From NCBI RefSeq assembly GCF_000337815.1, contig NZ_AOLN01000011.1, positions 310,001 through 374,000 of the forward strand: a stretch of 64,000 bases of DNA, read 5' to 3'. Of this stretch, positions 13,825 through 24,571 are shown in pieces; the first letter of the stretch is position 1; every line of letters starts with the position of its first letter. The stretch comes from Haloferax mucosum ATCC BAA-1512. Lineage in GTDB: Archaea > Halobacteriota > Halobacteria > Halobacteriales > Haloferacaceae. The notes below the pieces were generated by a model. The model ran no database searches and was not told where the DNA came from. It saw only the letters and a program-made list of their open reading frames with translations. The position numbers were made by a program, and so were the translations under genes.

Positions 13825-14418
13825 TCAGGAACGGTAGCGGTCGATGACGCGCTTTGCCGAGATGGCTTTTTCCTTCCATCCGTAGCCCGCGTCGTAGACG
13901 TGGCGCTTTTTTTCGACGAGTTCGGCGGGTGTCGCTTCCTCGAATCCGCCACGGTCCCACGCGCCGGTCTCGCGGAGCCAATTGACGACGTTTTCGCGCG
14001 TCTCAGGCCACGACAGACCAACCATCTCGTACCACGCAATCATGGCGAAGACGGCGTTGTCGTGACAGCCGGGGACGCTTCCGTACTGGTGGAGGGTCCG
14101 CATCGGTTCGTGGGTCGGCTCGGACACCTCCTCTCTGAACTCCTCAGCCGTGAGGAGTCGAAGAACACCCGACTTGGCTTCAGACACCCGTTCGTCGCGT
14201 TTGAGCCGCCCGAGTGCGGCCTGCCGGAGCGGTCCCCACTCGCCGGGACTCTCGCGGCGAAGCGTCTCTTCGTCGCACGGACCGCCGGTGAGAACCGAGA
14301 CGAGGTCGATGTAGGCACGTTCGACCTCGACCCACGGGATTCCCTCGAACTGGCAGTCCGCATCGTGGAGACTGGTCGTCGAGCGGCAATCCGGACACGG
14401 GTAGTCGAAGTGTGGCAC
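13825..14418 (-). CDS. Conserved zinc-knuckle protein divergent from priL
   Basis: The 197-residue protein starts at GTG 14418 (VPHFDYPCPDC). A C-x2-C-x6-H-x3-C set (C8, C11, H18, C22) at the N-terminus is a likely zinc site. The rest is mixed helical and soluble, with conserved-looking YGSVPGCHDNAVFAMIAWY at about 121-139 and a lysine-rich C-terminus (KKRHVYDAGYGWKEKAI). The frame stays open far upstream on the shadow of priL, so the start was set by the zinc motif and the intergenic boundary. It is divergent from the primase large subunit with 123 nt between starts. I do not recognise the family; a replication link rests on position alone. Confidence 0.72.
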   Translation of the reverse strand: MPHFDYPCPDCRSTTSLHDADCQFEGIPWVEVERAYIDLVSVLTGGPCDEETLRRESPGEWGPLRQAALGRLKRDERVSEAKSGVLRLLTAEEFREEVSEPTHEPMRTLHQYGSVPGCHDNAVFAMIAWYEMVGLSWPETRENVVNWLRETGAWDRGGFEEATPAELVEKKRHVYDAGYGWKEKAISAKRVIDRYRS

Positions 14419-14541
14419 GTGAGAGGTTGAGGGAGTAATCCGTAATAGGTAGTGTGATGCGTCGTCGCCGCGAGTGCCATCGCCACGCGCGCCACCGCCG
14501 AATCCGTCGCGTTTATCGGTGGGCACCCGGAACGTGGCGGT

Positions 14542-15648
14542 ATGCGGATGCGCCCGCTCCACGCTCGATACCCGTTTTTCGCCGCGGCCAGACAGGCGGT
14601 CGAATCGGCCGAGGTTGCGATTGCAACGCTCGTCGCCGAGGACGCCCCGGCCGTCGAGCGTGGGGTAGAGCGCGTCGAACGCGCCCTCATGGAGGGCACC
14701 GTCGAAGCCGAAGACCCCTACGCGTGGGACACCGAGTCGGAACTCCTCTCGTATCCGATTTCTCGGATTATCGTCTCGCTCGTCGAGACGCCCGCGGCGG
14801 TGGATAAGTACGCCCGCGCCGAGGCCGACACCGCCTACGAGCACATGGTTGCCGACTTCGAAGCGACCGGGGATGACATCAACAGCGACGCTCGCGCCAG
14901 TCTCGACGACGTGCTCCGCGAGTTCGACCTGGCTGGTTCGGTACGGGCCGAGCGGACCGAAAACGCCCACCGCGCTCCGGAATACTACTGGGTCGATATC
15001 GGTCCCTACCTCACCTACTGCGACACCGACTGGGGAGCGGACTGGCGACTCGTCAATCGCTCGCTCGCCGATGGCGCGGTTCGTGTTGGCAGAAAAGAAC
15101 TCTACAAACTCCTCAGAGAGGCCGTGCGCCGCCGCGTCGCCGAGGGCCTCCCGTTCGCCGTCCGCGGAAGCGACGCGGGCGACCAACTCGCTGACGCGCT
15201 CAAGCCCCACGTCGAACGCCTGCGAAACCTCCTTTCGGACCGCGGCGCGGTCAACGTCGTCTACACGGACACGGTCAGTCCCGACCACTTCCCGCCCTGT
15301 GTCGAATCGCTTCTGTCGCGCACACAGGACGGCGAATCGCTCTCGAACGAAGCCGAATTCTCACTCGCGGCGTTTCTCGTCGGCGTCGGTCTCAGTCCAG
15401 AGGAAGTCGGCGGCGTCGTCGGCGACGCGAGCGCCGAGTCGCTGAAAACGCGGGCGACCGTCCTCGCGGACTCCAGCGGGTCGCAGTACGCGCCGCCGAC
15501 CTGCGAGACGATGCAGGCGTACGACCTCTGTGTGAACCGCGACGACCGTTGTGACACTATTTCTCACCCGATGAAGTACTTCGAGACGGCAACGAGCGGC
15601 GCGGAGTCGACGGCGACAACCGACGAAACACCCGGTAGCGCGGATTGA
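14542..15648 (+). CDS. priL: DNA primase large subunit PriL
   Basis: PriL partners the catalytic subunit PriS to make primers for replication. The 368-residue protein has the N-terminal helical domain (HARYPFFAAARQAVE) and the C-terminal iron-sulfur domain with four cysteines, C253, C321, C330 and C337 (PPTCETMQAYDLC, then DDRC), spaced as in archaeal and eukaryotic PriL, where they hold a 4Fe-4S cluster. The last 25 residues are a disordered S/T/A-rich tail. The start is either ATG 14542 or ATG 14548; MRPLHARYPFF is the conserved beginning, so 14548 is equally possible. priS is not in the window. Confidence 0.93.
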   Translation: MRMRPLHARYPFFAAARQAVESAEVAIATLVAEDAPAVERGVERVERALMEGTVEAEDPYAWDTESELLSYPISRIIVSLVETPAAVDKYARAEADTAYEHMVADFEATGDDINSDARASLDDVLREFDLAGSVRAERTENAHRAPEYYWVDIGPYLTYCDTDWGADWRLVNRSLADGAVRVGRKELYKLLREAVRRRVAEGLPFAVRGSDAGDQLADALKPHVERLRNLLSDRGAVNVVYTDTVSPDHFPPCVESLLSRTQDGESLSNEAEFSLAAFLVGVGLSPEEVGGVVGDASAESLKTRATVLADSSGSQYAPPTCETMQAYDLCVNRDDRCDTISHPMKYFETATSGAESTATTDETPGSAD

Positions 15649-21401: not shown

Positions 21402-21560
21402 GTCGCTCGTTCGGTCCGGGGGTGTCGTCAATCCACCGTCTCGCGGTCGCGGTGCGAACGCGCCCGCCGCTTCGAAGCCGAATCAACCGATACTAGTCCG
21501 ATTCCCGAAAATCGAGAACGAGCAAAGGTCCTTAGGTATGGACCCCAATTATGAGGGGAT

Positions 21561-21908
21561 ATGGAGTCCCCGTTGAACCTCGCGCTCGTTCCGGGGCACG
21601 TCCAAGCTGAAAGCCCGTGGATAACCGTCGTCGTCGCCCTCGCGGGCATTTCGTCGGTGGTGCTGGCCGGGCTGGGTGTGGCGGTGTTCTTCCGCCGACG
21701 GACGCGGTCACACTTGCTCATCGCGCTGGCGCTTCTGGCGTTCGCCTCACGGGCCGCCGTCTCGGCGCTCACCTTCGGTGGTATCCTCACGGACTTCGAC
21801 CACCACGTCTTCGAGCATCTCTTGGACTTTGTGATGGCCGGACTCGTCCTCGCGGCCATCTACTACGCCCGGCGTATCGAGCGCGAAACGGGGGTAAACG
21901 AACCATGA
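21561..21908 (+). CDS. Three-helix membrane protein paired with a winged-helix regulator
   Basis: The 115-residue protein has hydrophobic helices at about residues 20-42, 50-70 and 85-103, with basic loops (FRRRTRSH) and a charged C-terminus (RRIERETGVNEP). Its stop overlaps the ATG of the next gene (ATGA), so they are co-expressed. The same kind of pair, a short membrane protein followed by a two-wing HTH protein, recurs in haloarchaea; the function is not known to me. A weak TATA-like CTTAGGTATG lies 20-30 nt upstream. Confidence 0.8.
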   Translation: MESPLNLALVPGHVQAESPWITVVVALAGISSVVLAGLGVAVFFRRRTRSHLLIALALLAFASRAAVSALTFGGILTDFDHHVFEHLLDFVMAGLVLAAIYYARRIERETGVNEP

Positions 21909-22417
21909 GCGAGACACGAATCCGCGTCGCCGACCACATCAAGCACAATCCGGGAGTCCACTTCAACGAGCTCGTCCGCGCGCTCGACCTCGCTCCCGGG
22001 CAGGTACAACACCACGTCCGCAGACTGCTCTCCGACGAGACGGTCCGCCGAACCGAGTTCTACGGACGGACGCACTACTTCCCGCCGGAGTTCGACGACT
22101 GGGAACGCGGCGCGCTCGCACTCGTCCGACGCGAGACCGCCCGCGACATTCTCGGACACCTCCTCGAACACGGCGATGCCCGCCCCGACGACGTCGCCGA
22201 CGCAATCGGCGTCGCCCGGAGCACGCTGGAGTGGCACCTCGACCACCTCATCGAGCGCGACCTCGTGGAAAAAGAACGCGACCTTCACAACCGCGTGACG
22301 CTCGTCCTCACCCACCCTGAGCGGACGACGAAGCTCCTCAACGAAGTGTCACCGTCGCTTCCCGAGCGGTTCGTAGACCGGTTCGACCGACTCATCGACG
22401 CGCTCGTCGAAGGCTAA
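21905..22417 (+). CDS. Double winged-helix regulator coupled to the membrane protein
   Basis: The 170-residue protein contains two winged-helix domains in a row: residues about 5-60 (RVADHIKHNPGVHFNELVRA, then PGQVQHHVRRLLSDETV) and about 75-135 (RRETARDILGHLLEHGDARP, then ARSTLEWHLDHLIERDLVEK), with a helical tail. It has no ligand domain, so membrane recruitment by the upstream protein is a possible control mode (inference). The last codons GAA GGC TAA are the first element of a 7-copy tandem repeat, so the natural C-terminus and stop are part of the expanding unit. Confidence 0.85.
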   Translation: MSETRIRVADHIKHNPGVHFNELVRALDLAPGQVQHHVRRLLSDETVRRTEFYGRTHYFPPEFDDWERGALALVRRETARDILGHLLEHGDARPDDVADAIGVARSTLEWHLDHLIERDLVEKERDLHNRVTLVLTHPERTTKLLNEVSPSLPERFVDRFDRLIDALVEG

Positions 22418-22550
22418 GACAGCCCGCCGAAGGCTAAGACAGCCCGCCGAAGGCTAAGACAGCCCGCCGAAGGCTAAGACAGCCCGCCGAAGGCTAAGAC
22501 AGCCCGCCGAAGGCTAAGACAGCCCGCCGAAGGCTAAGACAGCCCGCCGG
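22411..22550. repeat. Seven tandem copies of a 20-bp unit
   Basis: The unit AGGCTAAGACAGCCCGCCGA is repeated seven times head to tail without variation except at the last base (22550). The first copy includes the stop codon of the winged-helix gene. AGCC-CGCCGA-AGGCT across unit borders can form a small hairpin, so the array could make seven stem-loops between two convergent genes. Confidence 0.97.
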
Positions 22551-22567
22551 TCGCGGGCGGAGCCACC

Positions 22568-23647
22568 TCAGCCTTCGGTTGTGGCCTGTCGCAGTCGGTC
22601 GATTCGAGCGTCGTAATCCGGTTCGAACGAGAGGGCCGACCCACGACTGTGGTCGAGTTCCTCTCGTATCGGCTCTAACGTATCCGCGAGCGTGTCGTGT
22701 CCGACTCGCGCCGCCGCCGCGTCGTCGGCCCGAAGCTTGAGTCGCTTACTCAGCGTGATTCCGACCACAAGTGACAAAACGCCGACGCTGGCGAAGACGA
22801 GAAGGCTGTTTGTCGGTGCGAGTCCGGAGAGCGCGAGGCCGCCGAAGGCGGTAGCCGAGAGCAACTGCATCTCGTACGTGAATCGGTTCGTTCGCTCCGC
22901 TTGGACGGCGAGCACGGCGAGCACGGCGGCGACCGTGTCGTCGTCATAGCGTTCGAGAAACGAGTCGGTCACGAAGAGCGTTTTCCGACCGACCGGGCCG
23001 CGAACGAAGTGGTCCGAGCGATAGCCGTTGCCGTCGAGCAGTCGGGTTCGAACGACCGAGAGACCGACACGCGACTGAAGATTATCGAGTCTCTGTTGTG
23101 CATCCGCGTCCGGTTCAGTCGTCGTCTGCGAGAGACCGACGAGCGGCGTCGAAAAGATGTATCCTGCGGTACCGAGTACCAGAATCGTAAACACGCCATG
23201 CGAGACGCCACTTCTGATTTCGGCCCGGTACAGCGTCACCACGGAGAAGACGAGAACCGCGACGACGAGGTGGTATCGGAACATTATCGCGGCGGCCGTC
23301 CCCGTGCTCATCTCGACACCGCGCACGCGCTTTGCGACCGGGAACGCGCCGAGGTAGGAAACGGTTGCGACGGCCGCGGCACCGACCGCGACGAAGAGCC
23401 ATCCGAGAATCGGCCACGGCCAACCGGTTGGAAGGCCGGCGAGGCTGAGCAGTTCACGGTCTGCATCGAACAGCAAGGTGACGACTGCAAAGAGGGCCGC
23501 GGCAAAGAGCCAGAGACTCCGAATCCGCCGTCTAAGCCGCTGAACCGACCCGTCTCGTTTTTCGAGTCGGCGGGCGCTCAGCCACGACCACCCCGACCCG
23601 AGGAGGGACACGGCGACGAACGCGCCGACGAACGTAACAGGAACCAT
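22568..23647 (-). CDS. Peptidase-M48-like membrane protein lacking the zinc motif
   Basis: The 359-residue protein has four or so N-terminal hydrophobic segments (to about residue 165), a soluble middle and two more helices (264-300). The segment LFVTDSFLERYDDDTVAAVLA (residues 224-244) is typical of M48/HtpX peptidases just before the catalytic helix, but where HExxH should follow the sequence reads V-L-A-V-Q (245-249), then AERTNRFTYEMQ. The downstream region RADDAAAARVGHDTLADTL (about 306-324) resembles the family's E-x-x-x-D zinc-ligand helix, also altered. It therefore looks like an inactive relative, perhaps a structural or regulatory pseudo-protease. It is convergent with the 20-bp repeat array. 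Confidence 0.75.
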   Translation of the reverse strand: MVPVTFVGAFVAVSLLGSGWSWLSARRLEKRDGSVQRLRRRIRSLWLFAAALFAVVTLLFDADRELLSLAGLPTGWPWPILGWLFVAVGAAAVATVSYLGAFPVAKRVRGVEMSTGTAAAIMFRYHLVVAVLVFSVVTLYRAEIRSGVSHGVFTILVLGTAGYIFSTPLVGLSQTTTEPDADAQQRLDNLQSRVGLSVVRTRLLDGNGYRSDHFVRGPVGRKTLFVTDSFLERYDDDTVAAVLAVLAVQAERTNRFTYEMQLLSATAFGGLALSGLAPTNSLLVFASVGVLSLVVGITLSKRLKLRADDAAAARVGHDTLADTLEPIREELDHSRGSALSFEPDYDARIDRLRQATTEG

Positions 23648-23725
23648 GTAAAACTGGACACGTGACCTGTCAAAAATAATTCCGGCTTGCGAAAGTCAAT
23701 TAGCGTCGGGACGAGACGGAACGGT

Positions 23726-24571
23726 ATGCGAATCGCCGTTCCCAACAAGGGCCGCCTGCACGAGCCGACGATAGAGCTTCTGGAACGTGCGGGACTCCAC
23801 CTTGACAACGGTGCCGAGCGGAAACTCTACGCAGGGACCGTCGATCCCGACGTGACCGTGCTCTTCGCTCGCGCCGCCGACATTCCCGAGTACGTCCGCG
23901 ACGGAGCCGCCGAGGTCGGTATCACGGGACTCGACCAAGTCCGCGAGTCGGGCCACAGACTCGCCGAACTGCTCGATTTAGAGTACGGAAACTGCCGACT
24001 CGTCCTCGCCGCCCCGGAAGACGGCGACATCGACTCGCCACAGGACGTGTCAGGGAAAATCGTCGCCACCGAGTTCCCGCACATCGCCCGAAGCTACTTC
24101 GACAGACACGGAATCGACGCCGAAGTCGTCGAGGTTACCGGCGCGACGGAACTGACGCCACACGTCGAGATGGCCGACGCCATCATCGACATCACCTCGA
24201 CCGGAACGACGCTCCGGGTGAATCGCCTCGCAATCGTTGACGAAGTGCTCTCGTCGTCGGTTCGGCTGTTCGCCCGGCCCGAAGTCGTAGACGACCCGAA
24301 GGTGGCCCAACTCGTCATGGCGCTCGAATCTGTCCGGTCCGCGGAGGACAAGCGCTACCTGATGATGAACGCGCCGCGCGACAAACTCGACGAGGTAAAG
24401 GAAGTCATTCCGGGGCTGGGCGGGCCGACCGTGATGGACGTCGCGGGCGACGAAACCGTCGCCGTCCACGCCGTCGTGAACGAACAGGACGTGTTCGAAG
24501 TCGTCAGCGACCTCAAGAACGTCGGTGCGAGCGGCATTCTCGTCACCGAAATCGAGCGGTTAGTCGAGTAG
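23726..24571 (+). CDS. hisG: ATP phosphoribosyltransferase HisG, long form
   Basis: HisG catalyses the first step of histidine synthesis, joining ATP and PRPP. The 281-residue protein starts [20 protein letters not shown], has the [12 protein letters not shown] loop (about residues 70-81) and the PRPP-binding segment [18 protein letters not shown] (about 152-169), and ends in a regulatory ACT-like domain (about 205-281) typical of the long form inhibited by histidine. The ATG at 23726 is used; an upstream in-frame start would add 13 basic residues. Other his genes are not adjacent, as is common in haloarchaea. Confidence 0.95.

Follow-up and report, generated by a model that had tools for sequence, protein, structure and literature searches.

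Tandem repeats that run over the end of a coding region have a precedent in Yersinia pestis, in which 10 of the 88 VNTR loci extend over a stop codon, most VNTR motifs measure 7-21 bp and the periods of VNTRs located inside open reading frames are divisible by 3 (PMC3689786). In Mycobacterium tuberculosis, the ETR-F locus (VNTR3239), located between rnc and fpg1, consists of lineage-specific exact repeats, the length of which correlates with expression (PMC2734929). For the haloarchaea, nothing specific on VNTRs was found in the literature. The intergenic transcription terminators of Haloferax volcanii have been described as T stretches, with a hairpin motif that terminates about 59% of transcription and an AGATC motif that acts in coding regions (PMC7237163).

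The locus reported here lies in a window of 64,000 nucleotides (the whole stretch of DNA analyzed) from Haloferax mucosum and places a perfect tandem array between two convergent genes (Table 1). Very probably, this array is a young non-coding minisatellite, and a presumptive VNTR, that overlaps a stop codon, which would make it a known kind of locus. Period-20 identity extends over 142 bp with zero mismatches, and TRF reports 100% matches and a score of 284. The seven perfect 20-bp repeats of the original prediction are indeed present: read from 22408, the array consists of seven perfect copies and then 2 bp (CG) of an eighth, whereas in the phase that starts at 22411 copies 1-6 are identical and the last base of copy 7 (22531-22550) changes from A to G. 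This change is simply the end of the periodic run, and AGGCTAAGACAGCCCGCCGA is the CGAAGGCTAAGACAGCCCGC unit read in a different phase.

Table 1. Coordinates of the array and of neighboring features in the window
Feature	Start	End	Strand	Description
170-aa regulator gene	21905	22417	+	Pfam HTH_HVO_0163_N, winged-helix domains
Perfect period-20 array	22408	22549	.	Unit CGAAGGCTAAGACAGCCCGC, 7.1 copies
Imperfect palindrome	22529	22578	-	Arms: end of copy 6 plus copy 7; end of convergent gene
Convergent gene, 359-aa predicted protein	22568	23647	-	No known family; TGA stop at 22568-22570

The seven-copy array is not a product of chance. Its head-to-tail 20-bp unit falls among those of minisatellites and tandem repeats (about 10-60 bp), and the local, non-dispersed origin of a minisatellite is apparent in that the unit occupies a single locus and the spacers of relatives are of single-copy size. 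A search of the organism's own genome (3.37 Mb, 20 contigs) allowing up to 3 mismatches returned these seven places only. MIRU-like dispersed repeats, on the other hand, occupy many genomic loci, and a mobile or dispersed repeat was discarded as a reading because the unit is confined to one locus; a coding repeat was likewise discarded because no open frame spans the array. Viral contigs yielded no exact match to a dimer of the unit, and a blastn search of plasmids with positions 22380-22600 was likewise negative. In a repeat census covering 854 kb, about a quarter of the genome and slightly redundant where stretches overlap, no other array of 3 or more copies and at least 95% matches escapes being crossed by an open frame. 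The copy number might still be an artefact of assembly, the real one being other than seven, or even one, in that the genome is a draft of 20 contigs and tandem arrays are often mis-sized. Short-read assemblers, however, usually collapse exact repeats and rarely invent them, an array of 142 bp fits within long short reads, and this one sits well inside a 562-kb contig; we regard such an artefact as very unlikely.

The plus-strand gene of the pair encodes a DNA-binding regulator with a second winged-helix domain besides HTH_HVO_0163_N. As anticipated from the initial reading, the unit carries the end of this coding region, and copy 1 holds the final codons of the regulator (GAA GGC TAA), with the in-frame TAA at 22415-22417. 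The protein encoded by the convergent gene matches no family in Pfam or NCBIfam. Its orthologues occur in seven of 14 other Haloferax genomes, with 56-61% identity in those aligned, and where the spacers of genomes devoid of it were read, hisG mostly follows directly after the regulator. The gene is patchily distributed at a fixed site, between the HTH regulator and hisG, in roughly half of the Haloferax genomes searched. Both genes flanking the array in H. mucosum are intact, and both proteins appear unharmed. As in the stop-codon VNTRs of Y. pestis, a short unit includes the 3' end of an open reading frame together with its stop codon, and the extra copies lie outside the protein. Unlike the Y. 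pestis loci, for which copy-number variation among strains was measured, the array is here described in one genome, and an archaeal one.

Comparison with Haloferax relatives, which include H. prahovense, H. gibbonsii and H. denitrificans, points to a single-copy ancestor. In six of them bearing the same gene pair (H. prahovense, H. marisrubri, H. massiliensis, H. sulfurifontis, H. denitrificans and strain Q22), the stop-to-stop gap measures 21, 21, 24, 24, 24 or 32 nt. The gap here is 150 nt; six units account for all but 30 nt of it, a remainder inside the range of the relatives (21-32 nt). On these grounds the spacer of the ancestor was almost certainly of single-copy size and has since grown by six units in this lineage, in agreement with the original suggestion that six further copies fill the space between the convergent genes. 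The proposed recency of the expansion is likewise supported on the scale of the genus, because the copies are identical, the unit (at up to 2 mismatches) is absent from all 14 genomes of other Haloferax species searched and the orthologous spacers are short. The situation recalls ETR-F, in which exact direct repeats found in one lineage also inflate an intergenic gap (1-6 bp in the ETR-F relatives listed). ETR-F nevertheless differs in lying between co-oriented genes and upstream of a start codon, and in being built of compound units, whereas the genes here are convergent; moreover, its repeat length correlates with expression.

A plausible course of events would start from an ancestor whose two stop codons stood about 30 nt apart, an ordinary spacing. 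There, the 20 bp that hold the final codons and the stop of the regulator may have become duplicated through slippage at a CG microhomology of 2 bp, perhaps with the help of the neighboring palindrome. Subsequent growth to seven copies might have proceeded by replication slippage or unequal recombination. The run length (142 bp, or 7 x 20 + 2 bp) places the CG microhomology at unit boundaries, which matches what would be expected of a duplication made by slippage. The added copies would fall in the 3' untranslated region while copy 1 retains the original frame through TAA, and selection would tolerate a 20-bp unit, in spite of its not being a multiple of 3, with neither protein altered. A period of this kind appears to cost nothing because the array sits just outside the protein, copy 1 keeping the frame up to its TAA. 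We infer from these features the slippage mechanism, its timing, the near-neutrality of the array and its copy-number variation between isolates. Taken as a whole, the locus looks like the outcome of an ordinary recent copying slip. It offers a clean example, the comparison with relatives recovering the single-copy ancestor, of harmless expansion starting at a stop codon in spite of a unit length not divisible by 3. Strains of this Haloferax species might also be told apart by the array, should its copy number vary.

Since each unit carries a stop on both strands, TAA recurs every 20 bp on the plus strand and TAG every 20 bp on the minus strand, and, 20 leaving a remainder of 2 when divided by 3, every frame of both strands contains stops. 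It could be argued that the array is a translational fail-safe, catching ribosomes that read through or have shifted frame. Any unit with one stop and a length not divisible by 3 has this property automatically, however, and the spacers read in relatives are all free of such tandem stops; such a role seems extremely improbable.

The original prediction also held that each unit can form a short hairpin and that the array may act as a serial terminator. A serial or bidirectional transcription terminator or insulator, in which repeated hairpins would block read-through and antisense transcription, is in keeping with the convergence of the genes and with the 59% termination obtained with a single hairpin motif in an H. 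volcanii reporter (PMC7237163). The hairpin of the unit does exist, but its stem is just 4 bp long (GGCT/AGCC) and uninformative, because, among control sequences treated as tandem units, one arises by chance in 16% of the shuffled units and in 31% of the 20-mers drawn at random from the window. When the 186-nt region is compared with dinucleotide shuffles, the z-scores are -2.12 on the plus strand and -3.66 on the minus strand, although seven identical copies of any weakly self-complementary unit would push fold stability in this same direction. More favorable to termination is the long stem that copy 7 forms with the right flank in minus-strand RNA, which gives a z of -1.83 in its single-copy form (14 of 300 shuffles being as good); the plus-strand single-copy fold reaches only -0.83. 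The palindrome in this segment spans the stop codon of the convergent gene and pairs better in minus-strand RNA, through G-U pairs, than in plus-strand RNA, where A-C mismatches arise.

The site resembles the intergenic terminators of H. volcanii in lying downstream of stop codons and in containing one hairpin-forming segment, and it departs from them in its short per-unit stems and in lacking a T stretch. A Haloferax terminator of the hairpin type would carry a stable hairpin just upstream of a mapped 3' end, and copy 7 with its flank is predicted to fold into a hairpin on the minus strand. On the plus strand, positions 22400 to 22980 are free of T runs of four or longer, the first being found at 22981, which leaves the sense side devoid of such a tract for about 400 nt, and the nearest on the minus strand (22269-22273) lies inside the regulator gene, some 300 nt beyond the convergent stop. 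Moreover, the AGATC motif is absent from the array region, Rfam yields no match at E<=1 over 21500-24000 and the six orthologous spacers, with z from -1.02 to +1.59, reveal no conserved structure. A scan for sigma-70 and intrinsic terminator patterns, which are bacterial in type and of limited use in an archaeon, returned nothing at the array. The modeled hairpin that copy 7 makes with the right flank, itself stronger in the RNA of the convergent gene, may cause leaky or weak termination, but such termination would already exist with one copy and therefore does not explain the array. Serial termination is unlikely on this evidence.

Some features run counter to a neutral minisatellite. Identical copies would be equally expected under active homogenization or selection, and a role is slightly hinted at by the unit's carrying one arm of the palindrome that extends over the stop codon of the facing gene. 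The array might also be a 3'-end element under selection, tunable through its copy number, in which added units alter antisense overlap, termination or the stability of RNA 3' ends. Were this true, it would constitute an archaeal VNTR that tunes the convergent expression of a regulator gene and its neighbor, but we consider it a very slim prospect.

The interpretation of the array as a young minisatellite is supported by other near-perfect arrays of the same genome, which lie inside genes and have periods of 27 bp (5.5 copies), 15 bp (7.3 copies) and 54 bp (2.7 copies), all divisible by 3, as in the in-ORF VNTRs of Y. pestis. Two of these, the 27-bp and 15-bp arrays, also attain at least 3 copies and at least 95% matches, and both are in frame. 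Given that all in-gene periods are multiples of 3, expansion would be general in this genome, and a reading-frame filter would set where a 20-bp unit survives. The 27-bp array (L108:14383-14530, G000:C18) encodes TDSTKTPGA repeats close to the C-terminal end of a putative membrane protein (ORF 13853-14581) and is probably another young expansion. The 15-bp array (L097:18386-18494, G000:C11) encodes (EKTKR)n within an 858-aa ORF, a predicted DEAD/H-type helicase whose family was judged by reading the sequence and not from a search. The 54-bp array (L088:6821-6968, G000:C11), with 98% identity, is found in a Glu/Pro-rich open frame of 978 codons.
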